A DNA stretch of 64,000 nt from Fidelibacterota bacterium. Lineage in GTDB: Bacteria; Fidelibacterota; UBA8477; JABMPR01. Every line of letters starts with the position of its first letter. Within the stretch, counting starts at the first letter, position 1. The stretch lies in assembly GCA_016845065.1 (NCBI GenBank), contig JAERTG010000130.1, positions 1 through 64,000 on the forward strand. Direction: 5' to 3'. Below the pieces are notes generated by a model, which ran no database searches, had not been told where the DNA came from, and saw only the letters and a program-made list of their open reading frames with translations. Positions 12,128-31,924 of the stretch are shown one piece after another. The translations under genes and the position numbers were made by a program.

Positions 12128-13981
12128 CTACAGTTCTTCACCGACCCAGCGTCTTACATCTCCATCTCTAAGGAGAAGACCTTTACGCTCGGCATAGTTG
12201 AGCATGGGCAAAATATATTTTCGTGTAGTAGGGATAAACTCCCTTAATTGGGCCACAGTTAACTCAGGATTGCTTCTGAACCACTTTTTCAATGCTTCAA
12301 TGAAATAGTCGATCTGGCTGCTTAACAAGTGGAAATCCTTATCAACTCGGATGAGTTCCTTATGCTGAATCATCCATTGGAGGACTTTGTACTCCTGGGC
12401 ATTCAGCGATTCCTTCAACTCGTTTAGAGAAGGTGACGAAAAGTTTGAATCATAAAAGATCTTCTCGATGCTTTGTTTTGCCTGTTTATCTCCCTCATCC
12501 AGTGTCCCTAGATGACCAGATAATTGCCAGAGATCTCCTTGATTTTTAAGCGTGCCTGATTGTAAAGCTATGGCCAGAACGAATTCGCGATGGGCTTCTC
12601 CCAAATCTGTCAGATCTTCCCTGGGCAAGCCCTTGCCCAACGGTTCTTGCTCATGGTATCTCTCGAGGACCCGATTGATATGGTCCATACTACGAGCAAA
12701 GAGTGATTGTTTGATAAAATGATCCTGGTGGTTTAAATAATCCTCAGATTTCTGGAGCAGCGTATGAACCTTTGATTCGGCGACACTAAGATACCGTGCA
12801 ATTTCTCTCCTATTTAAAGGACGATTAAAAAATTCCATCACTACAGGGATTAATGCAGATAAATTCTCAGTTCTAAGAGAACGTAATAGAGGTAAATATT
12901 TATCCTGTTTTTTCAATCTATAGTCGATGGACCAGAATAACTCAGCCCCTCCAAGGGTTTCCTCAGGGGATAGATATCGGATGACCATTTTTTCCTTAAA
13001 TCCTGCTGAAATAGGTTCGTCAAAGAAAAATTGAGCCATCATGGTTTGACCCGGATCGCACTGATTAGCTTCAAGAAGATGGACACGGGCTTCACGCTTC
13101 CCTGTGCCAACATGAACATGGACTCGATCTGCTTCCTTAACAGGCTTCTTCCAGTGGGATAATACGCTCAGTTCAGCTACCCAGGCTGATCCAGTCTGAA
13201 ACATACCCGGACTTCCCAGGAATGCGCCCCGACCAAGCTCTTCGACGCTGGCACCACCCAGATTTATAGCTCCTCGATCACCAAATTTGATTTTGTCCAC
13301 ATCGAGATGGTGAGACTGGAGACCTCTCACAGGAAAAGTGCTTTCCTGTGGAAAGAGTTCCACACTCTGCCCCTTCCTCAGTTCGTGAGATAGAACAGTT
13401 CCTGTAACGACAGTACCAAATCCTTTTACCGAGAAAACGCGATCGATGGGAAGCCGAAAAACGCCCTGTCGATCCTGACTTTTTATTTCAGAAATTGTTT
13501 GATTCAGTGCTGCCCGCAGATCTTCAATTCCCTGCCCGGTTACTGCAGAAACCGGGATAATTTGTGTTTCTGGATAGCCCCTCTCGGCAAGATAAGTAGC
13601 AACCTCTTCTTTGACTAATCCAAGCCATTCCGGATCAACCAGATCAGATTTATTCAAGGCGACCAGAATTTTTCCAATGCCGAGGATATGTAAGATGTCC
13701 AAATGCTCACGGGTCTGGGGCATGACCCCATCATCAGCTGCAATCACCAGCATAGCTGCATCGACAGTGCTGACACCGGTCACCATATTCTTAATGAATT
13801 TTTCGTGACCTGGCACATCAATGAATGTGACATCCTCACTATAAAAAGCGATGCCAATATCAATGGTGACACCACGGCGCTTTTCTTCCTCTAGACGATC
13901 GGTATCAACACCCGTAAGTGCTTTGACAAGCGCAGTTTTTCCGTGATCTATGTGTCCAGCCAATCCGATTACTTTTTGCAT
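12128..13981 (-). CDS. selB: Selenocysteine-specific elongation factor SelB
   Basis: IGLAGHIDHGKTALVKALTGVDTDRLEEEKRRGVTIDIGIAFY; C-terminal winged-helix region; same locus as selA. Confidence 0.93.
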   Translation of the reverse strand: MQKVIGLAGHIDHGKTALVKALTGVDTDRLEEEKRRGVTIDIGIAFYSEDVTFIDVPGHEKFIKNMVTGVSTVDAAMLVIAADDGVMPQTREHLDILHILGIGKILVALNKSDLVDPEWLGLVKEEVATYLAERGYPETQIIPVSAVTGQGIEDLRAALNQTISEIKSQDRQGVFRLPIDRVFSVKGFGTVVTGTVLSHELRKGQSVELFPQESTFPVRGLQSHHLDVDKIKFGDRGAINLGGASVEELGRGAFLGSPGMFQTGSAWVAELSVLSHWKKPVKEADRVHVHVGTGKREARVHLLEANQCDPGQTMMAQFFFDEPISAGFKEKMVIRYLSPEETLGGAELFWSIDYRLKKQDKYLPLLRSLRTENLSALIPVVMEFFNRPLNRREIARYLSVAESKVHTLLQKSEDYLNHQDHFIKQSLFARSMDHINRVLERYHEQEPLGKGLPREDLTDLGEAHREFVLAIALQSGTLKNQGDLWQLSGHLGTLDEGDKQAKQSIEKIFYDSNFSSPSLNELKESLNAQEYKVLQWMIQHKELIRVDKDFHLLSSQIDYFIEALKKWFRSNPELTVAQLREFIPTTRKYILPMLNYAERKGLLLRDGDVRRWVGEEL

Positions 13982-14048: not shown

Positions 14049-15314
14049 TTAATTCAATATAAAACGCCAGATCAGGAAGAATACCGCGAAACCTGCCAGG
14101 AAGACCATACTGATCCAGTTGAATATCAGTAATCTTGGTCCTGGTCTCCCCTCATCCGGCATCCAGGGGCCAGTTACTGCCCGATAATTAATATATGCGA
14201 GTATAGGTGCTGTTAGAAAAGCCAGGGTTGTTGCCAGGTCTACCAGCAGAGTCATCCCACTCATAAAAAGACCTATAATTACCAGGCTTCCACCCAGTAC
14301 AATGATCATCCAGATCCAGTAGAGTGACTTCTCATCCTTATCCGCATATTTATTGGGAAAAACCAATTCTGTTGAACGTTTTAACACTCTGGGAAATGCA
14401 TCTGTCACAGTAAGGGTTGTGCTAAACATGGTCGTGAGTGCTGCAATGGCGACGACTGGGTAGCTCCAATTACCAAGTGTTGAAGTATACAGAGTTACAA
14501 ATTGACCGGCGAACTTGCTTCCTGAGGGTGAAAATGATTCACCCGTACCATACATTACTAAAGCGCCCAGGCTCAAAAATCCCAGGGCCAATATACCGGT
14601 GCCAAAATATCCCAACTTGAAGTCGAAGAGAGAGTCTGCCAGACTTGGGGCTGACCCAGTTTCATTTCGCCGTTCAATTGTCCATAAAGAGTGCCATACT
14701 GAAATGTCAATTGCAGAAGGCATCCATCCGATAAGGGCGACCATAAAGGATACTCCTGCTACATCCCACAGATGTGGTGGAACAAAATCAACCTTTACTG
14801 AAGAGCCATGACCAAAGGCAGTCACCACTGCCACAATGGTTGATATGCTCAAAATGACAATGATAATCTTGATCAATTTGTCAAGCACCCGATACTTTCC
14901 TATGGTAAGCACACCTGCACAAACAGCCAGGATCACTGCACTCCAGGTGAGTGGGCTCATTGCCGTACCAAATATTTTGGAGGCCAGACCTGCGGTTACG
15001 ATGGTTACAGCTGCTTGAAGAACGAACATGGTCCCGAATGTCGGAATAAGGAAGGCCACTAGCGCCCATTTGCCAACCCTTTGATAACCATCCAGCAAAC
15101 TTTCGCCCATGGCGGCAGCATAGCGTGGTCCAAACTCAAAGGCAGTGTATTTGAACAAATTGGCGACAATAACAACCCAGATCAGGGCAAATCCATAATT
15201 CGCACCAGCTCGAGTACTTTGAACCAGGTGAGAAACACCAACGGCAGCGCCAGCCCACAGTAGACCTGGTCCCAGCGCTTTTAGTCGAGATTGCCATTTA
15301 ATCGAGTTCTTCAT
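14049..15314 (-). CDS. Nramp-family divalent metal transporter
   Basis: LGPGLLWAGAAVGVSHLVQSTRAGANYGFALIWVVIVANLFKY N-terminus and ~11 TM segments. Confidence 0.85.
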   Translation of the reverse strand: MKNSIKWQSRLKALGPGLLWAGAAVGVSHLVQSTRAGANYGFALIWVVIVANLFKYTAFEFGPRYAAAMGESLLDGYQRVGKWALVAFLIPTFGTMFVLQAAVTIVTAGLASKIFGTAMSPLTWSAVILAVCAGVLTIGKYRVLDKLIKIIIVILSISTIVAVVTAFGHGSSVKVDFVPPHLWDVAGVSFMVALIGWMPSAIDISVWHSLWTIERRNETGSAPSLADSLFDFKLGYFGTGILALGFLSLGALVMYGTGESFSPSGSKFAGQFVTLYTSTLGNWSYPVVAIAALTTMFSTTLTVTDAFPRVLKRSTELVFPNKYADKDEKSLYWIWMIIVLGGSLVIIGLFMSGMTLLVDLATTLAFLTAPILAYINYRAVTGPWMPDEGRPGPRLLIFNWISMVFLAGFAVFFLIWRFILN

Positions 15315-15332
15315 AATCGCATTTTCCTTATA

Positions 15333-15697
15333 TAGTCTTCGCGATTCCGTCAGGTCGCGGCGATCTCATTGTGTTCCTTTACCGGGAAGTAGGAGATGAC
15401 CACTTCATAGAGCTACTCATGTATCTGGTTCCTCTAATAGTCTTCGCGAGTCCGTCAGGACGCGGCGATCTCATTCTGTCCCTTTACCGGGATTTAGGAG
15501 ATGACCACTTCATAGAGCTACTCATGTATCTGGTTCCTCTAATAGTCTTCGCGAGTCCGTCAGGACGCGGCGATCTCATTCTGTCCCTTTAACGGGATTT
15601 AGGAGATGACCACTTCATAGACCTACTCATGTATCTGGTTCCTCTAATAGTCTTCGCGAGTCCGTCAGGACGCGGCGATCTCATTCTGTCCCTTTAT
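15333..15697. repeat. Tandem repeat array, period 105 bp, three full copies plus a partial fourth
   Basis: TAGTCTTCGCG recurs at 15333, 15438, 15543 and 15648. Copies 2 and 3 are nearly identical; copy 1 is more diverged. Confidence 0.95.
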
Positions 15698-15707
15698 CAA
15701 AAGGTTC

Positions 15708-15743
15708 GAGATTGCCACGCTCATTTCATTCGCTCGCAATGAC
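15708..15743. repeat. REP-like palindromic element
   Basis: GAGATTGCCACGCTCATTTCATTCGCTCGCAATGAC with ATTGC/GCAAT inverted termini. Confidence 0.65.
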
Positions 15744-15777
15744 TTAAAACGAATACCTCATCATTCCATATAATGAA

Positions 15778-17142
15778 TTACAATATTCCTAAAGCTTCAG
15801 CTATTGTAGAATCTTCTGACTCACGAACAGCTTTAAAATCGATGATAAATGTATCATCAACGATGCGTCCCATGATGGCAGGCTCATGAGACCGCAAACA
15901 ACTTGCTATCCGAGCTGCCTTCATACCACTATGCTTAATGCCAATCCCAATGGAGGGCATTTTTTCTGAAGGTGAAGCCCCAGAACCAACCTGGGCTTCC
16001 GTGTTTAACACAGATATGCTCAATTTGGAATTATCAGTTCCATCCATCAGTGCCTCAGCCCTTTTTTTGAGATTTTCAACTGGCGTGAGCAGGTCACGAT
16101 ACACTGGAATGTCTCTCAGATTATTCTTCCCTCCAGAGAAGGCTTTCAAGGCCTGTAAGGTGAGTAGAATCTGTGTCTTATCCGGCCGTAATGCCCTCAA
16201 GAGGTTATTCTTTTCAATCTTCTTGATGAGAACCTGTCTACCTGCAATAATTCCGCCTTGTGGGCCTCCTAGCAATTTATCCACTGAAAATGTTACGATA
16301 TCCACACCAGTTCCAATTACTTCGGAAACCAGCGGTTCACGCTGGAGACCGAATTCATCTATTGGCACCAGAGCTCCGCTACCCAGATCAGCCATCACTG
16401 GGATGGAATGCTTTTTCCCCAGTGCTACCAGATCCTGGAGGGAGACTTCCTTCGTGAATCCTGATATTTTATAATTTGATGTGTGCACCCAGAGCAAAAG
16501 CTTGGTGCGAGGAGATATTGCCTCTTCATAATCCTTAACATGTGTCCGGTTGGTCGTTCCAACTTCCACCAATTTAGAGCCAGCCTTGCGTAAAATCTCA
16601 GGGATTCTGAAGGAGCCTCCAATTTCCACGAGTTGTCCTCTACTGATGATGACTTCTTTGCGATCTGCGAGGGTGTTTAGTGCCAATAGGACGGCTGCAG
16701 CATTATTATTGACCAGAATACCATTTTCTGCAGCACTGATGGACTGAATCCAGGGGCGCAGGTGATGGTGACGATTACCACGTCTCCCATCATCAAGATC
16801 AAGCTCAAGATTGACATAGCCATCTTTGAGTTCATCCATGGTCTCAAGCATGTGGGTACTCAGCGGAGACCGTCCCAGATTGGTATGAATGACAACACCA
16901 GTACCATTGATCACTTTCCGAAGCGAGTGTGCTATTTTGAGCAATTTTTTCCGATACCTGGATTCAAGATTCACCTGCGGTAGAGCCTTCCCTTTTGAGG
17001 CCTGTTCTCGCAACTGTTCTAAAAGATAGCGAGCTTCATTTTTTTTGAGGTTATGGGGCAACTCCAGATCTGTAACTGATTGGAGCAGAGCGTCAACGCT
17101 AGGTAATTCTGACAGGTTCATTGAATTGGTTGAAGATTTCAT
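15778..17142 (-). CDS. selA: L-seryl-tRNA(Sec) selenium transferase
   Basis: VINGTGVVIHTNLGRSPLS; DLGSGALV; VTFSVDKLLGGPQGGIIAGR PLP-lysine motif. Confidence 0.96.
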   Translation of the reverse strand: MKSSTNSMNLSELPSVDALLQSVTDLELPHNLKKNEARYLLEQLREQASKGKALPQVNLESRYRKKLLKIAHSLRKVINGTGVVIHTNLGRSPLSTHMLETMDELKDGYVNLELDLDDGRRGNRHHHLRPWIQSISAAENGILVNNNAAAVLLALNTLADRKEVIISRGQLVEIGGSFRIPEILRKAGSKLVEVGTTNRTHVKDYEEAISPRTKLLLWVHTSNYKISGFTKEVSLQDLVALGKKHSIPVMADLGSGALVPIDEFGLQREPLVSEVIGTGVDIVTFSVDKLLGGPQGGIIAGRQVLIKKIEKNNLLRALRPDKTQILLTLQALKAFSGGKNNLRDIPVYRDLLTPVENLKKRAEALMDGTDNSKLSISVLNTEAQVGSGASPSEKMPSIGIGIKHSGMKAARIASCLRSHEPAIMGRIVDDTFIIDFKAVRESEDSTIAEALGIL

Positions 17143-17210
17143 GGAGGTTATCTCTATGTCATTGTACTTTTAGATTTTGAGTGCTCTGCGTTCACGAAAA
17201 AATGAAGCAG

Positions 17211-17975
17211 CTACATGTCAATCAATAGTTTAATTGCAAAACCGATGACAGCAACGGTAACTACCTGCTTTATAAATTTATGACCTTTTTTGATGGCTAC
17301 ATGCGTACCCAGCCAGGCGCCTATGATATTTCCTGCGCCTAACATAGCTCCCATTGCCCAATTGACCTGCCCATTCCAGGCAAAAATGATCAGAGCGATG
17401 GTAGTAAAGAAGAAGATGATGGTCAGTTTAACTGCATTTCCATGAACCAGGTTGATATTCTGCCACAAAAGAACTGATAGTATCAGAAATCCCACACCAG
17501 CCTGGATGTATCCACCATAAATACCCACAAAAAAGTAGGCCATCCCCGGTCCTAACCATGTGCCCACATGGGACTCCGGGTTCAGTAGATCTCCATCCTG
17601 TCGATTGGACGAAAACAGGGTAAACAGAGACATCCCGATCATGAACATAGCCAGACTCACCTTAAATTGAGCATTGCTCACCAGCGTGGCCAGCCAGGCA
17701 CCGAGGATTCCTCCAGGCAAAGCAAACAAGGAAGCTTTCAATGCAAAAATACCGGGGTTCACCTTTTGTTTCATGAAGTGCCCGACTGCAAAGGTATTTT
17801 GCATGAGGATGGCGAGTCGATTCGTCCCGTTGGCGATATTAGGAGGCAAACCTAGAAAAATGAGCAGTGGCAGGGTTAGAAATGAGCCCCCACCTGCCAG
17901 TACATTGATAAAGCCAGCGCTGGCACCTATGAGGAGTACAGCTAACAAATTAAGAGCGGTTAAATTCTCAAGCAT
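17211..17975 (-). CDS. TauE/SafE-family permease
   Basis: GASAGFINVLAGGGSFLTLPLLIFLGLPPNIANGTNR; start moved to MLENLTALNLL. Confidence 0.85.
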   Translation of the reverse strand: MLENLTALNLLAVLLIGASAGFINVLAGGGSFLTLPLLIFLGLPPNIANGTNRLAILMQNTFAVGHFMKQKVNPGIFALKASLFALPGGILGAWLATLVSNAQFKVSLAMFMIGMSLFTLFSSNRQDGDLLNPESHVGTWLGPGMAYFFVGIYGGYIQAGVGFLILSVLLWQNINLVHGNAVKLTIIFFFTTIALIIFAWNGQVNWAMGAMLGAGNIIGAWLGTHVAIKKGHKFIKQVVTVAVIGFAIKLLIDM

Positions 17976-18037
17976 GCGACACCTTAATTCATACATCGCT
18001 TAAAAACCATCAGAAATTACCTTTCCAAATCAATGGT

Positions 18038-18071
18038 AAAAAAAAAGGCTGCCCAGTGGACAGCCCTTTAA
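18038..18071 (-). terminator. Rho-independent terminator
   Basis: Minus strand GGGCTGTCCACTGGGCAGCC followed by a T run; homologous to the hairpins at 21760 and 25453. Confidence 0.85.
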
Positions 18072-18109
18072 ATGTTTGGAGAAGCTTGTTAAATGGGGGA
18101 TACTCCTCT

Positions 18110-20074
18110 TTACCTAATAAAAACAGCTTTCTTGACTGCCCTGAATTCGGGTGTTGTCAATTCAATTAAGTATACTCCACTATCGCTCTGATCACCTGTG
18201 GATTTAGCTCCACTCCAAACAATTGAGTAATACCCTGCTGGTTCGTTTGAGTTTACTTGACTCCAAATCACTCTACCAGATATATCATAAATGTTGATAT
18301 TGACTTTGGTGGTCTTTGGAAGTTGATACTTTATAGTTGTACTCGGGTTGAATGGATTAGGATATGCATCTGATAAGGCATAGGTGGTTGGTATATTGTT
18401 GCTTCCGGAATCAGCAATTTCTTTGCTCGAGCTTCCAAGTCTTGTACTCACAAAATTTGAATAACCTGATTCCTGTTCAGTATAATCCTCGGCTGTGATT
18501 TTGTAATATACGAAGGGATCAAATTTGTCTCCAATTTCGACGCTTCCATCGGTCCAGGTTTCCGTAGTACAATTAACTGATGCAGTATGGAACCAATTAC
18601 TTATGCCTTCTTTCTTATATATTTCATAGGATTCTAGATCAGGTTCAATATTGGCATTCCAAGTGAGTATAGGATTCTGCCCCTGAGTTCCCGATAATCT
18701 TAGGTTTACAGGTGCAGATGGCGGTGCAAGAGTATAAAATGCATTTATACGACCGTGCCCAAGCTCATGGTCGAATCCATTGTTGTTAACATCTTCCGAG
18801 GCTTTTTCTAATAGCGTACGAATCTCTGTGGCAGTAAGATTGGGAAATCTCTCCCACGCAAGAGCGGCAAGACCTGAAACATGGGGAGCAGCCATTGAAG
18901 TTCCAGACATGTAACCATACTCATCTTCTGGGAGTGTCGAGAAAACCTTATGTGCGATCGAATCTGATCCACCACCTGGAGCTGCAAGGGAGATCCTCTT
19001 CAGAGTTGTATCATAGTTTGAGTATGATGGTCTCTCGTCATTGTGATCTGTTGCTCCAACGGATAAAACAGATCCGTATCCAGGCCACATTTTAGAAGGT
19101 GGAAACTCTGATTGGAAATTTTTATGCGCATAAAGGGCAGGTAAAGCTACTGTATCAATTTTGTCATTACCTGCACAGTAGACTTGAAGTGCTCCACTGT
19201 CATGGGCTCCAATAACAGCTGTTTCAAGATTTTGTGCCCAGGTATAGGCATGAAAACTACCATTTATTATGAGCTCATGGCTTGAAGTGTCAGCATAATC
19301 AACAGCATAATTGATGGCATTGGTAGCAGCTCCAGATGATATGTATCCCCAACCATCAATTGCCTTTATAATAAGTACTTGACCACTCCAAATAATACCT
19401 GCAATCCCAGTTGAATTGTTCGTTTCAGCGGCAATTATTCCAGCCACGTGGGTACCATGACCTCTGTAATCGTCTATATATGACTCACCGTCCGCATATA
19501 CAGGACCTATAAGAATTTTTTCTGAGTCATCCAGATCTTCATGTGTTAGAGTAGAATTATCAGGTTCACAGGGTATCCCTGAATCAATAATCGCGACCAG
19601 CACACCGTCTGCATCTGTCTCATAATCCCATGCTTCAGGGAGATCTATATCCGCGTCGTTCGTCCCATTTGAAGGTGCTTGTCCAGTATTTCTTAAAGGC
19701 CATTGGTACAAACTATCTGCATAAAATTCATCATTTGGGTTTGTAGAAGCAACTTCATAAACGAAATTTGGTTCTGCAAATTTAACGGCCTAATGATTCT
19801 CTACTGTATCGATATAATCGAATGTGTTAAGTTTTGAGGATATTTCGATCACGCCAAGACCCATACTCAGGAATTCAATGATAATGTCCGCCTCAAGGCT
19901 GTCTAAATATCCTTCAATATCATCTACGGTTTTCCCATCCTCTAGACCGATACAGATCTGGTTATCATAATAGCTAACCGTTTCCCCATTCCAAGTACCA
20001 GTTTCAATAGTGCCTGCTACAAGAGATTATGCTAATAGCCAAAAGACTGTTAAAATGATATGCTTTTTCCACAT
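18110..20074 (-). pseudogene. Subtilisin-like secreted protease with T9SS-type C-terminal domain; two in-frame stops near the 5' end
   Basis: MWKKHIILTVFWLLA*SLVAGTIETGTWNGETVSYY...DTVENH*AVKFAEPNFVYEV...MYQWPLRNTGQ is one continuous frame with TAA at 20027-20029 and TAG at 19790-19792. Triad motifs IDSG, GHGTHVAG and GTSMAAPHVSG intact. C-terminus YPNPFNPSTTIKYQLP...VYLIELTTPEFRAVKKAVFIR. Confidence 0.85.
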
Positions 20075-20149
20075 GTGAGACCCCCTCTATGAATTTGATT
20101 TGTTATTCTATTATGGCTTGCTGTTTTCCCAACATTTCCTCCTTTCGCG

Positions 20150-21493
20150 TTACCTAACAAGCATGTATTTGCTCACCAAAGTGGATTCCTGATTCCCTGC
20201 TTTGATGAAATAGATTCCTGATGGAAGTTCAAAAATATTATAATAAATATCTACTAAAGGAAAAACATTCTGTCCAACCTGTACCTCAATCGTTCGATCG
20301 CTAAGTTTTCTACCCAATATGTCATAAAACTCAATTGTCAACAAATCTCGCCCAAGGCTATAATAAGAGAGTGAACCTGATGGATTCGTAGGATTTGGAA
20401 ATACCATCAATTGCAGTTTGATATTTCCATATGATGGATTATATGCTTCCACAGAAACAGTATTTAGATCTAACGAAAAGAGCCCTGACCAGTATGCTCC
20501 TGCAAACAATCTGTTGTTTACAGAATCATACGTTAGACGATCAAGCCCATAAGATATTTCACCAATATTAAATGTATAATCGGACCAAGATTCGCCAAAG
20601 TCATTACTGAAAAAGATGCTGTCATTGGTTGCCAAGTAAAGGTGATTTGAATTGCTGGAGTCTAAAATGATTTCTCTTGCCATGACAGAGGGAAGGTGGT
20701 CATTCCATGATTCCCAAGAATCGCCATAGTCGTTAGAAAGGTAGGCGCCTGTACCTATTGAAGATATTAATATCCGACCCGGATTGTCAGGAAACAGTAT
20801 TATCGAGGAGATGGATTCGTCTTCGCCACAACATCCAGTAGTTTCTGACCAGGTTTCTCCCCAATCATAGCTTCTATATATTCTGGGGAGCCACCCGGCC
20901 GTATAATATATTGCATTTGTGTTAACGGGGTGCTGTCGAACAAATATCACATCACCAATGTATCCAGGATGGGCATCACTCCATGTAAGCCCACCATTGA
21001 TTGTTCTCCAAATATGGCCAGCACCGAACGCAATTGTTCCAGCAAACATGGTATCTGGAGAAACAGAATCGATTTCTATGTTAAATACCGACCTATCATC
21101 CCAAAGTCTAATTCCTTCATCAATCCATGTGGTATCGTGTTCGGTTCCATTCCTTACTACTTTCAACACTCCAGCCCGTGTAGAATTTTGGGACCCACAG
21201 GTTAAGAGGAGAGTGTCTGGGCTTGAAGGGTGAAATTCAATTTCACCTATAGACAAATCCTGAAACAGGGTATCAAGAGTATTACCATAGTCATAGCTGA
21301 CCATGAGAGCACCACGGCGCTGGTGGCCAAAATTAGAAGTTGTACCTATGTATAAAATTTGGCTTGAATCAGGATGAAATGCTATGTCCCCGTACTCAAC
21401 AACGTCCCACTGAATCCATTCCTGGCCTATTACAGTCAGTGGATAAATCGCACAGAGAAACAAGTTCAGCCCGAATATATATCGCAATTTCAT
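20150..21493 (-). CDS. BNR/sortilin-like beta-propeller secreted protein with T9SS-type C-terminus
   Basis: Signal peptide; repeated SYDWGETWSETT, SNDYGDSWESW, SNDFGESWSDY (Asp-box-like) motifs; FPNPTNPSGSLSYYSLG...GIYFIKA...YMLVR C-terminus. Confidence 0.75.
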   Translation of the reverse strand: MKLRYIFGLNLFLCAIYPLTVIGQEWIQWDVVEYGDIAFHPDSSQILYIGTTSNFGHQRRGALMVSYDYGNTLDTLFQDLSIGEIEFHPSSPDTLLLTCGSQNSTRAGVLKVVRNGTEHDTTWIDEGIRLWDDRSVFNIEIDSVSPDTMFAGTIAFGAGHIWRTINGGLTWSDAHPGYIGDVIFVRQHPVNTNAIYYTAGWLPRIYRSYDWGETWSETTGCCGEDESISSIILFPDNPGRILISSIGTGAYLSNDYGDSWESWNDHLPSVMAREIILDSSNSNHLYLATNDSIFFSNDFGESWSDYTFNIGEISYGLDRLTYDSVNNRLFAGAYWSGLFSLDLNTVSVEAYNPSYGNIKLQLMVFPNPTNPSGSLSYYSLGRDLLTIEFYDILGRKLSDRTIEVQVGQNVFPLVDIYYNIFELPSGIYFIKAGNQESTLVSKYMLVR

Positions 21494-21759
21494 AATTGTT
21501 TACCCCCATGGTAAAACAATGATATAATATTGAGCGGTTGTTTATTATTGTCAACTAAATAAATTCCCCGAACTGCACTAATTAGAGAAAAAGCTAAATA
21601 TCAAATATGAAACGAGATTTCATTTTTTTGCGTATTGTTCAGGATTTGTCTGCGGGTGCCGTGTGCATTTTCAAGTTTATCAGGCAATTAGTGCAGTTCT
21701 CGTCTCCCAATTAGTGCGTCTTCTCTCACCGACAATTCAAAATGGTTTTTCTCATGTAA

Positions 21760-21790
21760 CAAAAAAAGACTGCCCAGTGGACAGTCTTTT
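21760..21790 (-). terminator. Rho-independent terminator
   Basis: AAAAAAAGACTGCCCAGTGGACAGTCTTTT. Confidence 0.85.
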
Positions 21791-21830
21791 AAATCTTCGG
21801 ATAAGGTAGGTAAATGGGAGAAATTCCTTC

Positions 21831-23848
21831 TTACCGAATATATACAGCCTTCTTTACTGACCTGAATTTAGGGGTTGTAAATTCGATCAAATAAACTCCA
21901 CTTTGAGTTTGAGCACCTGTGGATGTCTCTCCACTCCATACTATTGAATAGTATCCTGCTGGTTCAAGAGAGTTATCGCGGCTCCATATTACTCTACCTG
22001 ATATGTCGTAGATATTAATATTGACTATAGTACTCTTGGGAAGCTGATATCTGATAGTAGTACTCGGATTGAAAGGATTTGGGTATACTTCAGATAAATC
22101 GTATGTAGTCGGCAAATTGTTGCTCTCAGGATCAGATTCAGCAATTTCTTTACTTGTGCTCCCAAGTCTTGTACTTACCGTCCACGAATACGGTGATTTC
22201 TGTTCAGTATAATCAGAGGCATTAATTTTGTAATATACAAAAGGATCAAATTTGTCTCCGATTTCGACACTTCCATCCGTCCAAGTTGTTGTGGTACTAT
22301 TAACATACCCAGTAAGAAACCAATTACCCGCTCCTTCTTTTTTATAAATATTATAGCGGTCTAAGTCTGGTTCATCATTTGCATCCCAATCCAGCTGCGG
22401 ATGCTGACCTTGACTACCAGTTAGACTGAGATTTGCTGGAGCAGCTGGTGGAGCCAACGCTGTATGTGCATTGATTCTTCCATAGCCAGATTTTGGATCA
22501 ACACCTGCGCTCTCAATATCATCAGCTGATTTCTCGAGCACCACTGCTACCTCTTGTGCCGTTAATGATGGGAATCGTGATCTGATCAAACCTGCAAGTC
22601 CAGCAACGTGAGGGGAAGCCATTGATGTTCCAGAACAAAATCCGTAATAAGTATTTGTTTGAGGGATAAATTGACCTGGATATAATGTTGAATAAATATC
22701 ACTCGTATCTCTAGTTGAATAATCTCCGTCCATATTCTGCCCCCCGGGCGCTGAAACACGTATATGGTTTTCCCCAGCATCATAAGAGGAAAAGGAGGCG
22801 ATAGCATCATTCTTAGTTGTTGCTCCGACCGAAACAACGTTGCTGAACCCAGTTTGAGACGAATCAGGATTATTTGCATAATAAAATTTCGCTGGATATG
22901 TAACACCCCCTTGGTTCCCCGCAGCGCAAACCACTAGTACATCATTATCATAAGCGTAATCTATTGCAACCTCTAATGTTGAGTTCCATGCACTTCCCGC
23001 ACCGCTACAAATTGTTATTACATCTGCAGAACTATCGACGGCGGCTATAATCCCCCGAGCCATGTCATCCGATTGTGGATACGTATGATACGTTTTTATT
23101 ACTAATATTTTACAGCCCCAAGCTACTCCAGCTATTCCATAACTATTATTAGTCTCCGCTCCAAGTATGCCAGCGATATGTGTACCGTGTCCGAGGACAT
23201 CATGCATTGTAGTAACAGGATCCATTCGATCATCTATAGCAAAAACGGGTCCTATGATAAATTTATTAGCATCATTCAAATCATTGTGTAAAAGTGTCTG
23301 AGTAACATCGTTATAGGGGATGCCAGTATCTAGGATCGCGACCAGAACATCTGAATCCCCCGTTTCATAATCCCATGCCTCAGGTGCATCAATATCCGCA
23401 TCAGTAGTTCCACTTGGGGGTGATTGACCAGTATTGTGGAGTGCCCATTGATATGCAAATGTCGCAGGAGAGGTACCTGCATAATATGGATCGTTTGGGT
23501 GGGTTGTGAAGAGTGTACAGGCAAAGCTCGGTTCTGCATATCTGAACTCTGAATAAGAATTCAGTGAATCCAGCACTTCAAGCAAATCCGATTCTGAATC
23601 CTTTTTAAATTTACCAAAATTTAATTCGTTAAAAGTATATATAGTGTCCAGATTGTGCGCATTAAGGCGTGCTGTAACACTATCTTCATTCGCGGCTTCT
23701 TCAACCCCTAGAACAATGAAATCATTGTAGATATTAACTGAGTCACCACTCCATAATTCTTTAGTTATGGGATTTGATCCTCTAAGTCCGTGAGGGAGTG
23801 TTACAACACTCCTAAATATATCACCGACAATAAGAAATGTCTTCTCAT
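21831..23848 (-). pseudogene. Subtilisin-like secreted protease with T9SS-type C-terminal domain; frameshift at the signal peptide junction
   Basis: ATG at 23848 gives signal-like MRRHFLLSVIYLGVL then TAA; an adjacent frame continues IFRSVVTLPHGLRGSNPITKELWSGDSVNIYNDFIVLGVEEAANEDSVTARLNAHNLDTIYTF... into the protease ORF. Triad motifs LDTG, GHGTHIAG, GTSMASPHVAG intact; span is 2018 bp (not a multiple of 3). Confidence 0.8.
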
Positions 23849-23870
23849 TTTGATCCCCCTTCTTTTGTGG

Positions 23871-25193
23871 TTAACGCAATAAAATTGCTTTGCGAGTTTT
23901 GACTTCCTTTTCGGAGTGTATCCGAACGAAAATAATTTGACTCATAAACTCCTTATCTCTAAAAAGTATATCTCGAAGTTGTATATGCTGCTCATGTAGT
24001 GTTTCCGAAAACCCGTTTATCTCGCCTATTCTTCTACCTTTCACATCATAAACTTCAACTTTATATCGGCCCAGAAGCCCATTAAGTTTTATGGTGAGAG
24101 ATTCGTTAAATGGATTTGGGTAAAGCAGAATGAGTTCAAGGTCAGAGGACTGGTAACCATTATTCATTATATCTACCGCGTTTAAATCGTAGGAATATAG
24201 ACCTTGCTCAGTATGGCAGTACAATTGGGTGCCTGATTGATTATAGACTATAAACCTTACACTAGGAACCAATTGTTCACTATTTATCGGCTGCCAAGTA
24301 CTACCATTATTATTACTCAAGAAAATTCCATTTATAGTAAATACTATTACTTCACCAGGTCTCTCAATATGGGTAACAATACCTTTAACATATTCACCAA
24401 GGAGCTCTCCGCCCACCTCCTGCCATGTTTCACCAGCATCCATGGATTTTAATAGTCCATGGGATAGCTGGGCGGCGAAAACGATATTTGTATCATGAGG
24501 GTTAACTTCAACATCAGCACCACCACCACCCCATTCTGAGTTATAGGATAAAGCCCAAGATGCACCACCATTTACAGACTTGTGTACTCTCCCATCAGTT
24601 GGGGCTGATACAAACAAGGTATTAGTATTGTACATATTCAAAGATATAGATCTTATACTCACACCTTGTAGATAAATATATTCATCCTCTACAATATTTG
24701 TCCATGACTCCCCCCAATTCGTTGATTTCCACATAGTACTCCCGTACACACCAGCTCCCCCTGCGTACATCGTGCCTGGATGCATTGGGTCAATTGCGAT
24801 TACTTCAACCCAAGTTTCCCAATCGAGAAATATCCCTGAATCGCAATAAGTCCATTCTCGTCCTCCATCCATACTTTTAATTATGCCTGGTATAGTTCCA
24901 TTAATAGCAGAAAGTGCCACGTAAATAGTATTTACATCTAGTGGATCAACTGCGATTGAGGTTACACTTATACCCGTAAGGAGGGTATCTATCTCATCGG
25001 TTTCGACATTCCAATGGTACAAAGATCCATATATATTTGGGAAGCTAGCGGTCGTTCCGAAGTAGAGTGATTCATCTTGATGAGCGAATTTAACATCTCT
25101 TATATTTTCTTCGAATGGTAATACTAATTCCCACTCTTGGCAAAAGAGATTAGGCTGTATAAATAGGATTAAAAATATTAGGCTTCTTTTCAT
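23871..25193 (-). CDS. BNR/sortilin-like beta-propeller secreted protein with T9SS-type C-terminus
   Basis: Signal peptide MKRSLIFLILFIQPNLFC; MDGGREW, STNWGESW, VNGGASW, MDAGETW, NNNGSTW repeats; LYPNPFNESLTIKLNG C-terminal region. Confidence 0.75.
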   Translation of the reverse strand: MKRSLIFLILFIQPNLFCQEWELVLPFEENIRDVKFAHQDESLYFGTTASFPNIYGSLYHWNVETDEIDTLLTGISVTSIAVDPLDVNTIYVALSAINGTIPGIIKSMDGGREWTYCDSGIFLDWETWVEVIAIDPMHPGTMYAGGAGVYGSTMWKSTNWGESWTNIVEDEYIYLQGVSIRSISLNMYNTNTLFVSAPTDGRVHKSVNGGASWALSYNSEWGGGGADVEVNPHDTNIVFAAQLSHGLLKSMDAGETWQEVGGELLGEYVKGIVTHIERPGEVIVFTINGIFLSNNNGSTWQPINSEQLVPSVRFIVYNQSGTQLYCHTEQGLYSYDLNAVDIMNNGYQSSDLELILLYPNPFNESLTIKLNGLLGRYKVEVYDVKGRRIGEINGFSETLHEQHIQLRDILFRDKEFMSQIIFVRIHSEKEVKTRKAILLR

Positions 25194-25452
25194 AATCCCC
25201 ACCATCGTTAATCTGATTATAATATATACTTTGAACAAGTTCTTTTATGGTATTGACCATATCAAGCTGCACTAATTAGAGAAACGGCTAAAAATCAAAA
25301 ATGAAACGAGATTCCATTTTTTTGCATTTTGTTCAGGATTTGTTCGCCAGCGTCAGGCGCGGATTCAAGTTAATCAGGCCTTTAGGCCGGTTCTCCGCCG
25401 CCGATTAGGGTATCTTCTTTCGACAGACCATCAAAATGGTTACCTCAGATAA

Positions 25453-25483
25453 CAAAAAAGGGCTGCCCAATGGACAGCCCTTT
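25453..25483 (-). terminator. Rho-independent terminator downstream of rplS
   Basis: AAAAAAGGGCTGCCCAATGGACAGCCCTTT. Confidence 0.85.
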
Positions 25484-25505
25484 GAATGTTTGAAAAGAAA
25501 GAATC

Positions 25506-25853
25506 CTAGAAATCGCGTGCTTCTTTGATTCTAGCTTTTTTCCCACGCAATTTGCGAAGATAGTATAGTTTGGCGCGACGCACTTTACCGCGACGCAATA
25601 CTTTCACACCTGCAACAGTGGGCGCATGAAGAGGAAAAATTCTCTCAACACCAACACCATTTGAAATTTTTCTAACTGTAAATGTAGCAGTGATGCCTTT
25701 CCCAGTCCGGGCGATAACATTACCCTCGTAGACCTGAATTCTTTCTTTCTGGCCTTCGATAACTTTTACATCTACTGATACAGTATCACCTGGTTTGAAA
25801 TCAGGCAAATCTGTTTTTAGCTGCCCGGCAACCAGGTTATCTACTTTGTTCAT
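25506..25853 (-). CDS. rplS: 50S ribosomal protein L19
   Basis: [56 protein letters not shown]. Confidence 0.97.
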
Positions 25854-26556
25854 TACTTTCCTCCAGTCCTCTCATATATCTATCGAACAAGTCTGGGCGT
25901 TTAACTTTTGTCCGCTCTAGACGTTGCTGTTCTCTCCAATTTTCAATCTGTGCGTGATGCCCAGAGAGCAGCACGTCGGGTACTTTATTTCCCCGGTACT
26001 CAGCGGGGCGGGTATAATACGGTGCGTCCAATAATCCAACAGGAAAAGTGTCCGATTTTGTAGATTCATCATCACTGACTGCACCTGGAAGCAATCGAAC
26101 CATGGCATCTATGACAGCAAAGGCTGCAATTTCACCACCTGAGAGCACAAAATCTCCCAGACTGATTTCTTCATCGATAAGCTCATCTCTCACTCTCTGA
26201 TCGATACCCTTGTATCTACCACAGAGCAATACAATGTGGGGTGTCTCAACCAATCTTTCAGCATCATCCTGCTGAAATGGTTTTCCCTGAGGTGTGAGGA
26301 AGATGCGATGGCCAGTATTTTTGCGATACTCAGCCACAGCTTCAAATGCTCTGAACAGGGGGTCAGGTTTAATAATCATCCCGGCTCCCCCCCCATAGGG
26401 CACATCATCAATGTGCTTATAGGTATCATCAGCAAAATCTCGGATATCCCAGCATTTCATTTCAGCCAGACCGCTATCGAAGGCTCTCCCTACAATACCC
26501 ATCTCGCGAAAAGCTCCAAGCGTCTCAGGAAAAGTAGTAATGACATCAATAATCAT
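25837..26556 (-). CDS. trmD: tRNA (guanine-N1)-methyltransferase
   Basis: [12 protein letters not shown]...[18 protein letters not shown]...[12 protein letters not shown]...DFVLSGGE. Confidence 0.97.
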
Positions 26557-27068
26557 TCTACGTCCTCAGCAGAGTTCACCTGGATTTTGCGGCTCTCTAT
26601 ATCAATTTCAACCACCCATTCTTCAACAAGTGGTACAAGTGTCTCAGAATCACTATCCTGGATCAATAAAACATCATGAGCACCAGGACTCAATACTTCT
26701 ACGACTTTACCCAGGTTATTATTATTCTCGTCAACTACATCACAATCGATGAGATCATCGATGTAATATTCATCATCACCTAAATCCGGCATATCGTCAC
26801 GCAGCGTAAATATTTCTCTGTCGCGATAACTTTCCGCTTCAGTTCGATCCGGAATTTCATTGAAACTGAGAATGGCATAATCATCATAACCCTGGCAATT
26901 GCTCAGTGTGAGTTGTTTCCATTCATTACCCGAATTAACAAAAAGCTGCTCTAGGTTTTGGAGCATGTCAAGGTCGATACTATACAGGGTCACCTTGAGT
27001 CCCCCTTTTATACCATGAGGTTTGCGAACCATGCCTATGGCGGTTCTATTCACCTCAGCTGAAATCAT
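26553..27068 (-). CDS. rimM: 16S rRNA processing protein RimM
   Basis: GMVRKPHGIKGGLKV; DLIDCDVVDENNNNLGKV; LVPLVEEWVVEIDIESRKIQV. Confidence 0.93.
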   Translation of the reverse strand: MISAEVNRTAIGMVRKPHGIKGGLKVTLYSIDLDMLQNLEQLFVNSGNEWKQLTLSNCQGYDDYAILSFNEIPDRTEAESYRDREIFTLRDDMPDLGDDEYYIDDLIDCDVVDENNNNLGKVVEVLSPGAHDVLLIQDSDSETLVPLVEEWVVEIDIESRKIQVNSAEDVE

Positions 27069-27072
27069 TACC

Positions 27073-27306
27073 TTATTCGATGATCTCAAGCATGGCGCGG
27101 TTGGTACCGGCCTTTGCTGAAATCGCAGCTAATAGCGTTCGGAAAGCTTTGGCTGTGCGGCCTTGACGACCAATCACTTTACCAATATCCTCCTTAGCTA
27201 CCCTTAGTTCGAAGATGGTCACCCGTTCGCTATCGACTTGATTAACTTCAACTTCATCAGGAGAGTCAACCAGACTTTTTGCTACAAACTCTACGAACTC
27301 TTTCAT
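27073..27306 (-). CDS. khpA: KH-domain RNA-binding protein KhpA
   Basis: MKEFVEFVAKSLVDSPDEVEV...VAKEDIGKVIGRQGRTAKAFRTLL; start set by GGAGG spacing. Confidence 0.92.
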   Translation of the reverse strand: MKEFVEFVAKSLVDSPDEVEVNQVDSERVTIFELRVAKEDIGKVIGRQGRTAKAFRTLLAAISAKAGTNRAMLEIIE

Positions 27307-27367
27307 GCTCATACCTCCGTCGGTTGTCAAATCCACCTGATCATCGGTAAGGAATTTCTTCAGCTTT

Positions 27368-27940
27368 TTAAGAATCTTGCTTCTCCGTACCTTCAGCAGG
27401 TTCTTCGACAGGTTCTTCTTCTGCGGCTACTTCTTCAACTACTTCAGCAGTTTCCTCGGTCTCTTCGACCACTTCAGCGGCTGCTTCTGCTTCTTCAGCC
27501 TTATTGGCAGCAGCTTCTGCTTCTTCGGCTTTTTTAGCAGCGTCTTCTTCATCTTGCTTTGCGGCTTCAGCGGCGGCCAGCTTGGCTGACTCTGCTGCAG
27601 CTACTTTTTTACCACGCTCATCTCGGGCAAGTTCCCATTTATGCATTTCTTTGCTAATGGTCGCTTCATCTGCTTTGCGGCTCACCAATTCATATTTGAG
27701 GGTCAGTCCGCGTCCACGCAATAAGCTAAATACAGTGTCGCTTGGTCTTGCACCCTGGTCCATCCAGTGAAACAGACGTTCTTCATTGATCACGAGTTCT
27801 GCTGGATCTGGAATCGGGTTATAATGTCCAATTTTTTCGATTGATCTTCCGTCGCGAGGGGCACGTGAATCTGCAACCACTATTCTGTAGAAGGGTTGTT
27901 TCTTTTTTCCCATCCGCTTCAGTCTGATTTTTACAGCCAA
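27368..27940 (-). CDS. rpsP: 30S ribosomal protein S16 with long Ala/Glu-rich C-terminal extension
   Basis: [42 protein letters not shown]; ~100-residue low-complexity tail. Confidence 0.96.
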
Positions 27941-27952
27941 AAGGTGTTCTCC

Positions 27953-29275
27953 TTAAAATCCCATAGGCAGATTTTTCATCAACTGCCTTTTATTCATTTT
28001 TCCAAATTTCTTCATCATTTTGCGCATTGACTGGAACTGTTTAATCAATTGATTCACATCTTGAACCTTGGTTCCAGACCCTTTTGCTATTCTTTTTCTC
28101 CGGCTACCATCAAGTATTTGAGGGCGGTGCCTTTCCACAAGGGTCATAGAGTTAATGATTGCTTCAATCCTAGTCAACCTTTTTTCATCAATATCAACAT
28201 CTTTTATTCCTTTTACACCAGGTATCATGGACATTAAATCGCCTATGGGACCCATGGATTTCAGCTGTTTTAACTGTTGCTTAAAGTCCTCAAGATCGAA
28301 GGTATTTTTAAGCATTTTTTCTTCAAGTTTTGCAGCTTCTTCGACATCAATATCCTGCTGGGCTTTTTCCACAAGAGAGACGATATCTCCCATTCCCAGA
28401 ATACGACCAGCCATACGGTCTGGGTGGAAAGTTTCCAGCTTATCCAGATGCTCCCCTACACCAATATACTTAATCGGTTTCCCTGTGACTTCGCGTACAG
28501 ACAATGCTGCACCACCACGGGTATCTCCATCAAGTTTGGTAAGAATAACACCTGTCAGATCCACTGTTTCTGCAAAGGTACCGGCTGCATTCACTGCATC
28601 CTGCCCGGTCATGGCATCTGCCACAAACAGGGTCTCTGCGGGCTTCAGGGCCTGTTGGAGTCGTGTGACTTCATCCATCATGTCGGCATCTACATGCAAT
28701 CGACCAGCAGTATCAACAATGACCACATTGGCAGGGTAACGCACAGATTCTCTTATTGCAGCCTGGGCGATCTGAACAACGTCCTGATTACCTTCATCTG
28801 CAAAAACGGGAATATCCAGTTGTTTTCCTAGTACCTGAAGCTGGGTTATGGCTGCAGGACGGTAAACATCGCAAGCCACCAGGAGTGGCTGACGACCGCT
28901 TTTCCGTAAATTTCTTGCCAGTTTTGCTGTTGTGGTTGTTTTTCCAGAACCTTGAAGACCCACCAAGAGGATGATGGCTGGATTTCCTGAAAGTTCAAGA
29001 GCTGCTGTTTTTTCTCCGAGAAGGACGATCAATTCTTCATGGATGATCTTCACGATTTGTTGGCCAGGCGTGATAGAACGCAAGACTTCTGAACCGAGAG
29101 CTTTTTCCTTTACGGAGTTGATGAAAGTTCGAACGACTTTGTAATTGACATCAGCTTCAAGTAAAGCCCGTCGAACTTCCCGCATTGCATCTGAAATATT
29201 GTCCTCAGATAACTTCCCTTGACCGCGAAGTTTCTTGAAAACGCCTTCCAGATTTTGTGACAGTTGTTCTAACAT
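27953..29275 (-). CDS. ffh: Signal recognition particle protein Ffh
   Basis: GLQGSGKTTTTAKLA; VDTAGRLHVDADMMDE; C-terminal M domain. Confidence 0.97.
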   Translation of the reverse strand: MLEQLSQNLEGVFKKLRGQGKLSEDNISDAMREVRRALLEADVNYKVVRTFINSVKEKALGSEVLRSITPGQQIVKIIHEELIVLLGEKTAALELSGNPAIILLVGLQGSGKTTTTAKLARNLRKSGRQPLLVACDVYRPAAITQLQVLGKQLDIPVFADEGNQDVVQIAQAAIRESVRYPANVVIVDTAGRLHVDADMMDEVTRLQQALKPAETLFVADAMTGQDAVNAAGTFAETVDLTGVILTKLDGDTRGGAALSVREVTGKPIKYIGVGEHLDKLETFHPDRMAGRILGMGDIVSLVEKAQQDIDVEEAAKLEEKMLKNTFDLEDFKQQLKQLKSMGPIGDLMSMIPGVKGIKDVDIDEKRLTRIEAIINSMTLVERHRPQILDGSRRKRIAKGSGTKVQDVNQLIKQFQSMRKMMKKFGKMNKRQLMKNLPMGF

Positions 29276-29489
29276 GACTCCAGTTTCCTAATCTTGCCAA
29301 CTACATGCCTTATTGGATCCCTTATATATATAATACATTATATATACAATTAATGGGATTGACATAAAGCCGCGGAAGATAGACGACCGACCATGCGTGG
29401 GCAATGAGTTTCATGTATTTTCAGGTGGAGTGAAAAATTGGAGGGTTGAACGAATTACTGGATCAATTCGGCCAGCCATTCAGGGGTGA

Positions 29490-30284
29490 TTATTCAGGTG
29501 GCATGGACAATTTAAAAACTGAGCCCAAAATGAAAATCTCCCTCAGCAGAGGTATGTTTGCCAGCCTGGATTCTCTTAATTTCCACCCATATCGTAATTC
29601 ATGTGAAGGTCGAACTAGATAATATTTTTCCTGATCAATGGGGTAATTCAGCTGTCTTACCATCTTTTTAAACCTTCTCAGAGTCATCTGACATTCACGT
29701 ATCTCTTTTACATCAGCCCGAGCTTTGTCTGATTCACTAAGAATTTTAAGAAGGACATCCAGAATTGGTCCAGGAATCCAACTCAGATATGGGATTTTTT
29801 TAAGAAAAGATTTTAAAAAAGTCTGCTGATGAAGACCAAAGGGAGAATAAAAAGGTGGGAAGGTCATCAAAATGATCCCACCGGAACTGGTAAACTTACG
29901 CAGGGAAGCCATAAACTGATTTTTGCTACTTCGGGATATGTGTTCGATTACATCTCGAAGAATAATTATATCATAGTCCTCTCCGAGGATCGACTGGGCA
30001 TCGGCAGCGAGAATATCCTGTTGGATGAACCGCAAATTTGCGTGGCTAGTCTCCCACTTGAAATCCCGAACCTCCACCCCGGTACACGAAGCTCCCGCTT
30101 CGGCGAAAGCAGCCGAAAATCCACCATCTCCACAACCTACATCCAAGACTTTTTTACCTGCAATTGAAACTCCCCATCTCTCGAATAGAGGGATATAATG
30201 CAGTTCAGCCAATTTGTTCTGATAAGTCCAGTAATATTCTTTCCAGCTGGAGTAGGATTCTGGTTTGAGATGTGTGATTGCCAT
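29490..30284 (-). CDS. SAM-dependent methyltransferase
   Basis: KKVLDVGCGDGGFSAAFAEAGASCTGVEV motif I; DIIILRDVIEHI. Confidence 0.85.
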   Translation of the reverse strand: MAITHLKPESYSSWKEYYWTYQNKLAELHYIPLFERWGVSIAGKKVLDVGCGDGGFSAAFAEAGASCTGVEVRDFKWETSHANLRFIQQDILAADAQSILGEDYDIIILRDVIEHISRSSKNQFMASLRKFTSSGGIILMTFPPFYSPFGLHQQTFLKSFLKKIPYLSWIPGPILDVLLKILSESDKARADVKEIRECQMTLRRFKKMVRQLNYPIDQEKYYLVRPSHELRYGWKLRESRLANIPLLREIFILGSVFKLSMPPE

Positions 30285-30577
30285 TGTTCAATATAGTCAC
30301 CTCAAAAACAGAAGAAATGAGTAATTCTGCCAACATATTTCATCATCTCGCAAGGTAATATTCTTCGGCATAATTGTCATTTGGCAGTCATTCCGAAATA
30401 TATTGAATTCTTATGGCATATATTTTGTTAATATGTATACGCTTAAATGAACACCTTGACAAGTGCTCTATGAAAATGTACATAAAACCGTTCGAAACTG
30501 GATTCATTTCAGTGGCCTCAGATCGAGATTACAGGCTACCGTTAAAGTGAATAAAACCAATACGGAGACACATTCTA

Positions 30578-31924
30578 ATGGGAGTGTTTAAACTAAAAAA
30601 GGGCTATGATATACCTCTGCAAGGCAAGGCTGAGCGACGTGTAGAAAAAGCCCCCAAAACCACAGCGGTTGCTGTCCAACCCATCGATTTTCGTGGCTTA
30701 CGACCGGCGATGAAGGTTGAAGCTGGAGATAAAATCAACCGCGGATCGATTCTCTTTGTTGACAAACAGAATCCGGAGATTCTTTTCAGGTCACCGGCAG
30801 CTGGAACAGTCCGCGAAGTGGTTCGTGGAGAGCGAAGGGCTATACAGCGTGTTATCATCGATGTTGCTGGGGATTCTGCAGAAAAATTTGATAGTTATAC
30901 GCTTGACCAGGTCAATGCTTTTTCCAGCAGCCAGGCCAAAGAAGTCCTCCTGAATAGTGGATTGTGGCCCATCATTCGACAGCGTCCTTTTAGTAGGATT
31001 GCCGACATGGATGCCACACCCAAGGCAATATTTATTTCGGCTGTTGATTCAGCCCCCCTCCAGGCGGAGTCAGATATGTTGCTGGACGGTCAGGAAAAGA
31101 ACTTTCAGTTGGGTATCCAGTTGCTTTCCAAATTAACAGAAGGCAAAATTCACCTCTCGGTCTCAACGAAAACCAAAACTTTTTTCTCAAACTTATCAGG
31201 TGTTGAGCTGCATGAATTTTCAGGTCCTCACCCCGCCGGTAATGTGGGAATTCAAATTCACCACATCGATCGTATCCAGGCTGGAGAAAAGGTTTGGTAT
31301 CTTTCTCCCCGCCACGTATCCAAACTGGGTGGTTTTTTAAGCACAGGCGAGTATTCTGGTACAAAAACATATGCTCTCACAGGATCAGAACTGGACAAAA
31401 GGTATTATGTCACCGGGTCTGAAGGAGCACTCGTAAGTGATCTTCTCAGTGAAACCCTTCAGAATAACACCCAGCGTGTTATCTCAGGAAATGTTCTCAC
31501 CGGTGCTAGGAGCTCAACACTAGGGTTCGTAGGCTTCTATGATGATATGATCACAGTCGTACCTGAACTCGAAGGTAGGCGATTTTTTGGGTGGTTAAGC
31601 CTGGGTCTTAACGCCAATAGCTTCTGGCCCATGTTTCTGTCAAAATTGACTCCTAAAAAGAAACTTGCTCCAACGACTGATATGAACGGTGAAGAACGAG
31701 CATTCGTCTCAACAGGTGAATACGAGAAAGTCCTCCCCATGGATGTACTTCCAGTTCACCTCTGTAAAGCTATTCTTGTCGAAGATATCGAGCTCATGGA
31801 ACAATTGGGCATCTATGAAGTTGCCGCGGAGGATCTTGCTTTGTGTAGTTATATCTGTCCCTCGAAAATCGAGTTCGGTGATACCATCGAAAAGGGCGTT
31901 GAAATCATGGAAAAGGAGGGTTAA
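30578..31924 (+). CDS. nqrA: Na+-translocating NADH:quinone reductase subunit A
   Basis: LKKGYDIPLQGKAE; VDFxGLRPAMKVEAGDKI-like N-terminus; first gene of nqrABCDEF. Confidence 0.95.
   Translation: MGVFKLKKGYDIPLQGKAERRVEKAPKTTAVAVQPIDFRGLRPAMKVEAGDKINRGSILFVDKQNPEILFRSPAAGTVREVVRGERRAIQRVIIDVAGDSAEKFDSYTLDQVNAFSSSQAKEVLLNSGLWPIIRQRPFSRIADMDATPKAIFISAVDSAPLQAESDMLLDGQEKNFQLGIQLLSKLTEGKIHLSVSTKTKTFFSNLSGVELHEFSGPHPAGNVGIQIHHIDRIQAGEKVWYLSPRHVSKLGGFLSTGEYSGTKTYALTGSELDKRYYVTGSEGALVSDLLSETLQNNTQRVISGNVLTGARSSTLGFVGFYDDMITVVPELEGRRFFGWLSLGLNANSFWPMFLSKLTPKKKLAPTTDMNGEERAFVSTGEYEKVLPMDVLPVHLCKAILVEDIELMEQLGIYEVAAEDLALCSYICPSKIEFGDTIEKGVEIMEKEG

Follow-up and report, generated by a model that had tools for sequence, protein, structure and literature searches.

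The window (the whole 64,000-nucleotide stretch of Fidelibacterota DNA that was analysed) carries a two-unit, lineage-specific island of ∼7.4 kb (18000–25480) between rplS (25506–25853) and a TSUP gene (17211–17996). The gene order ffh…trmD–rplS–TSUP–selA–Nramp–selB–mutS is common to the window and to five relatives of the same genus (G009, G007, G012, G010 and G016), in which the rplS–TSUP interval is only ∼110–280 bp. selB (12128–13981) and a gene that we take from its sequence to be selA (15778–17142) adjoin the island, with an Nramp-like transporter gene between them, and this order is kept in the genus. Each unit of the island pairs a β-propeller gene with a subtilase gene, all on the minus strand. 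The propellers are Sortilin–Vps10-like and both genes are intact: that of unit 1 (23871–25238) carries a type IX secretion (T9SS) tail and has a signal peptide, MKRSLIFLILFIQPNLFC, that begins 15 codons in, and that of unit 2 lies at 20150–21493.

The two proteases (copy 1 in unit 1 and copy 2 in unit 2) match the subtilase family PF00082 (peptidase S8), with E values of 2e-46 and 7e-50 for the two copies. Alignment puts the Asp, His and Ser triad in place in both (VAILDTGIP, GHGTHIAG and GTSMASP, and the equivalents in copy 2), and both score above the cut-off for PF18962 (Por_Secre_tail) and FlgD_ig. The same genome encodes a SprA-like protein of the T9SS (SprA_N match) and gives >100 matches to the T9SS tail. 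The S8 triad, the propeptide and the T9SS tail are shared with the secreted subtilases (PF00082) with a Por_Secre_tail (PF18962) of T9SS-bearing bacteria; here, however, the frames of both paralogues are interrupted, and the genes are propeller-paired and sit on a lineage-specific island.

The ends of the island units are marked by a hairpin found three times and a spacer found twice. The rplS terminator and its spacer (25267–25490, minus strand) give a 226-column match, 78% identical, to a second copy between the two units (21561–21800, minus strand), and a third copy of the hairpin follows protease copy 2 (18036–18079, minus strand). The hairpin therefore stands after rplS, protease 1 and protease 2; it is single in those relatives that have one, and no further copy was found in the 421 kb of the genome that was scanned. 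Rfam at the gathering threshold gave no match in 15000–31000. At the protein level the propellers of the two units share 26% identity, the catalytic domains 44% and the linker/tail 75%, and the spacer is 78% identical, values that leave a simple recent tandem duplication unsupported. The units thus have conserved ends in common and differ in their heads; the ends may have recombined or undergone gene conversion, and cassette exchange at the protease 3′ end is also possible.

Interrupted frames of the two proteases

Protease copy 1 starts at the ATG at 23848–23846 (minus strand), after AGAAGGGGGATCAAA and downstream of a strong purine-rich, Shine–Dalgarno-like AGAAGGGGG. This start opens a 15-codon reading frame, MRRHFLLSVIYLGVL (23801–23848, minus strand), which covers the first part of the signal peptide and ends in TAA (23803–23801). 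The rest of the protein lies in the −1 frame (21831–23807, minus strand): the end of the signal peptide, the propeptide, the S8 catalytic domain with its Asp/His/Ser triad, the linker and the T9SS tail. That frame is open from stop to stop (23870–21831) and has no ATG, GTG or TTG ahead of the TTG at 23585. The preliminary description had reported this arrangement of an early TAA and a startless open remainder, and both coordinates and sequence agree with it. Its further statement that the break falls exactly at the junction of signal peptide and propeptide is wrong. In the alignment to intact homologues the residues after the break (VTLPHGLRGSNP…) are still part of the signal peptide, and the propeptide proper begins near …TKELWSGDS; a hydropathy scan of possible points of change from one frame to the other yields the best core with a change inside roughly the final four codons ahead of the TAA. 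Because of these two results, we place the break within the signal-peptide h-region, near 23801–23815, which is given as a range and not as one exact base. Inspection of the sequence at the break site showed no homopolymer and no short tandem repeat.

A perfect inverted repeat, GGAGTGTT-AC-AACACTCC, spans 23795–23812 and overlaps the first stop codon of copy 1. The 8 bp arms (23795–23802 and 23805–23812) and the 2 nt centre are exactly as first described, and the 8+2+8 sequence is unique in the window. Inverted repeats with arms of ≥8 and a loop of up to 10 are not rare here: there are 27 in the window, ∼1.6 to 4 times as many as expected when judged by ten random sequences of matched dinucleotide composition. 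As they cover 0.85% of the bases in the window, the chance of an overlap with the break is ∼1 in 100 for one site, which is mildly unusual and not by itself proof of cause. The small inverted repeat overlapping a frame change is like the quasi-palindrome-associated template-switch mutation described in Escherichia coli (PMC7202029), and such a switch is a possible origin of the copy 1 lesion. The diagnostic step of that mechanism is that imperfect arms are made more alike; copy 2 and the G010 homologue are too divergent at this site to serve as the near-identical intact allele for that comparison.

Copy 2 is interrupted by two in-frame nonsense codons. Its N-terminal part (19790–20074, minus strand) starts at the ATG at 20074 and meets a TAA in the signal peptide (20029–20027), after which the propeptide is open to a TAG (19792–19790); the remainder (18110–19789, minus strand), with the end of the propeptide, the catalytic domain, the linker and the T9SS tail, is open in the same frame. 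The claim that both paralogues are broken by different lesions in or near the signal peptide thus holds for the contrast between a frame change and in-frame stops, but copy 2 has two lesions and the second is in the propeptide. The catalytic and sorting domains do stay open, over ∼560–650 codons in both copies and with the catalytic triad intact. Both copies have a start codon and a ribosome-binding site, and neither has the in-frame N-terminal signal peptide of a T9SS cargo protein, which the homologues do have.

Routes to a full-length protease

A palindrome at the break had suggested that expression of the protease might be phase variable or otherwise switchable. The exact repeat at the break, the open frame downstream and the fact that both paralogues are off at the N-terminus are in keeping with this, and the locus is like phase-variable surface and secreted protein genes in that a gene for an exported protein has its frame broken close to the start. 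Copy 1, however, has neither the tandem repeat or homopolymer nor the productive inversion of such genes. Slipped-strand variation is not expected, since there is no slippage tract at the site. Inverting the 2 nt centre of the repeat removes the first TAA, yet another stop follows about a dozen codons on and the propeptide frame is never joined, so loop inversion can be ruled out as a means of restoring the frame. Similar repeats are common in the window, and copy 2 has in-frame stops, no switchable tract and no counterpart of the repeat. With a slippery heptamer also absent, the proposal of a switch finds no support and we regard it as very improbable.

Programmed frameshifting or readthrough of the stops might also yield the full protein. 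In this organism selenocysteine is very probably inserted at TGA codons of other T9SS cargo, and the region around the copy 1 stop folds somewhat better than its shuffles (z = −2.3); the hairpin, however, overlaps the stop rather than lying after it. A programmed −1 frameshift is ruled out by the absence of a slippery site at copy 1. The stops are TAA, TAA and TAG, none of them TGA, which rules out selenocysteine at these positions despite its very probable use by the organism. The homologues do without recoding, and a recoded full-length product is hardly to be expected.

Besides the selB and the selA-like gene of the window, the genome has a tRNA-Sec (G000:C73), and in each of three T9SS-tailed, thioredoxin-fold-like genes an in-frame TGA stands where a CxxC-like motif would have its first Cys (W*PVC, W*GSC and G*PGC). 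For the first candidate (L184; G000:C32:12826–13425, minus strand), each of the four close copies from the genus has the TGA; the second lies near G000:C32:131142–132700 (minus strand) and the third near G000:C80:33294–36329 (plus strand). The TGA-containing genes are likely to encode exported selenoproteins. A literature search on selenoproteins and type IX secretion found nothing relevant.

Both proteases could instead be made from internal starts, as cytoplasmic or retargeted enzymes without the signal peptide and most of the propeptide. The long open frames hold complete catalytic domains and offer a TTG at 23585 and at 19711, but no convincing ribosome-binding site accompanies these internal TTGs and a T9SS tail would serve no purpose on a protein that is not exported. 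Enzymes of this subtilase type as a rule depend on the propeptide for folding, which counts against such products, as does the use of an N-terminal start by the homologues. Internal initiation is therefore most unlikely.

Homologues, neighbouring genes and the assembly

Among the genomes compared, the closest relative of the protease is in G010 and matches contig JABIFX010000025.1 of Candidatus Neomarinimicrobiota bacterium SI053_bin30, which puts the window in that phylum. It is an intact open frame of 691 residues with a continuous signal peptide, in which the PF22148 propeptide domain was also found. Intact homologues with a signal peptide occur outside the phylum in Melioribacteraceae (JALWGH), on a SulCav contig (DYTA) and in Cloacimonetes 4572_55 (NBMB). 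The comparison with intact homologues that had been proposed thus turned up uninterrupted genes, which use the N-terminal start. Other members of the family are themselves damaged: the homologue in G002 has an intact signal peptide and an in-frame TAG in the catalytic domain, and one from another family of the phylum (L190, G230:C3:27000–34500) appears to be shifted in frame where the catalytic domain passes into the linker/tail. Across the genus, one of 111 S8 matches has a stop inside the domain, and it is this G002 gene of the same protease clade; the search detects only stops inside the catalytic domain and lesions outside it go unseen, which makes it a weak comparison with other S8 genes. 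That the lone broken domain belongs to this clade suggests a dispensable protease family. At E ≤ 1e-50 the family is present in only five of the 245 genomes of the phylum. A β-propeller-type gene lies directly upstream of the subtilase in both units of the window, in G010, G002, G022 and G063 and on three contigs from other phyla, and these partners are mostly T9SS-tailed.

An artefact of assembly or consensus would leave the genes of the population intact, with the bin consensus adding a base error to copy 1 or merging strains. The assembly comprises 182 contigs and is 93% complete, and copy 1 is only one frame change from being open; against this, the site is not a homopolymer, and the two proteases hold three distinct lesions within ∼4 kb, of which two are in-frame stops, as against none in ∼11 kb of the core genes that flank them. 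MutS, SelB, Nramp, SelA, TSUP, rplS, trmD and ffh each align to relatives as a single unbroken match, and a general assembly error is unlikely because these flanking genes are unbroken. We used the T9SS cargo genes of the same assembly as a control set in place of a genome-wide pseudogene count: ∼95 of the 108 that could be assessed have a clear in-frame signal peptide, as called by a simple hydropathy rule and not by a trained predictor. Several of the others are selenoprotein candidates or fragments at contig ends, and a few genes are truly broken at another place. A local error in copy 1 is conceivable, but an artefact is on the whole improbable, although it deserves more weight than switching, recoding or internal starts. 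Other broken T9SS cargo lies at G000:C31:2184–3900, G000:C142:1901–4200 and G000:C175:10451 and 18392; the lesions there are an in-frame TAA, a mid-gene frame change, a transposase gene abutting a tail remnant and a short remnant.

Probable decay of both proteases

The explanation that we consider probable is that the island holds two lineage-specific pairs of a propeller and a T9SS subtilase, and that both subtilases have become pseudogenes through independent ordinary mutations. Both have disabling lesions when set against intact homologues. Copy 1 would have been lost when its frame changed in the signal-peptide core, and copy 2 through two in-frame stops, one in the signal peptide and one in the propeptide. 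Translation would start normally in both copies and stop after 15 codons, so that no exported protease is predicted from either. As one lesion is a frame change and the others are in-frame stops, the two losses would be independent, and the suggestion of a parallel loss of export, made in the preliminary description beside that of a switch, is supported, as a loss of both paralogues, by this difference in kind and by the intact homologues. The unrelated lesions elsewhere in the same family (the TAG in G002 and the frame change in G230) also support decay, as do breaks at other places in a few more of the genome's T9SS cargo genes (by an in-frame TAA, a frame change and an IS insertion). Since rplS–TSUP is empty in five genomes of the same genus and the family is so sparsely distributed in the phylum, the proteases are accessory, and selection on these dispensable secreted enzymes may have been relaxed.

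The open catalytic domains and tails, the intact triads and the intact propeller partners count against decay. A pseudogene that had long been neutral would be expected to hold more lesions, which leaves either a recent decay or some selection on the remaining part of the gene; the open catalytic frames point to a recent loss. The three lesions are confined to the first ∼95 codons of ∼650, for which the chance is ∼0.003 (calculated post hoc), and this clustering allows for some selection on the position of the breaks. On another reading, which we think rather unlikely, propeller and subtilase form a functional secreted unit of two components that several phyla have kept; this lineage would keep the propeller by selection and repeatedly inactivate the protease, here at the export signal, and units might swap heads via a conserved 3′ cassette of linker, T9SS tail, terminator and spacer.

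The propeller–subtilase pair, which is conserved, apparently uncharacterized and traceable in other genomes, and the conserved T9SS-tailed selenoprotein candidate are more interesting leads than the lesion itself, and rplS–TSUP offers a marked insertion site to look for in other genomes. For this uncultured marine lineage, decay of accessory secreted enzymes in parallel is a better reading than the switch that the palindrome first suggested. If other members of the community keep their secreted proteases, the loss here would be in line with a loss of functions that are leaky and shared.
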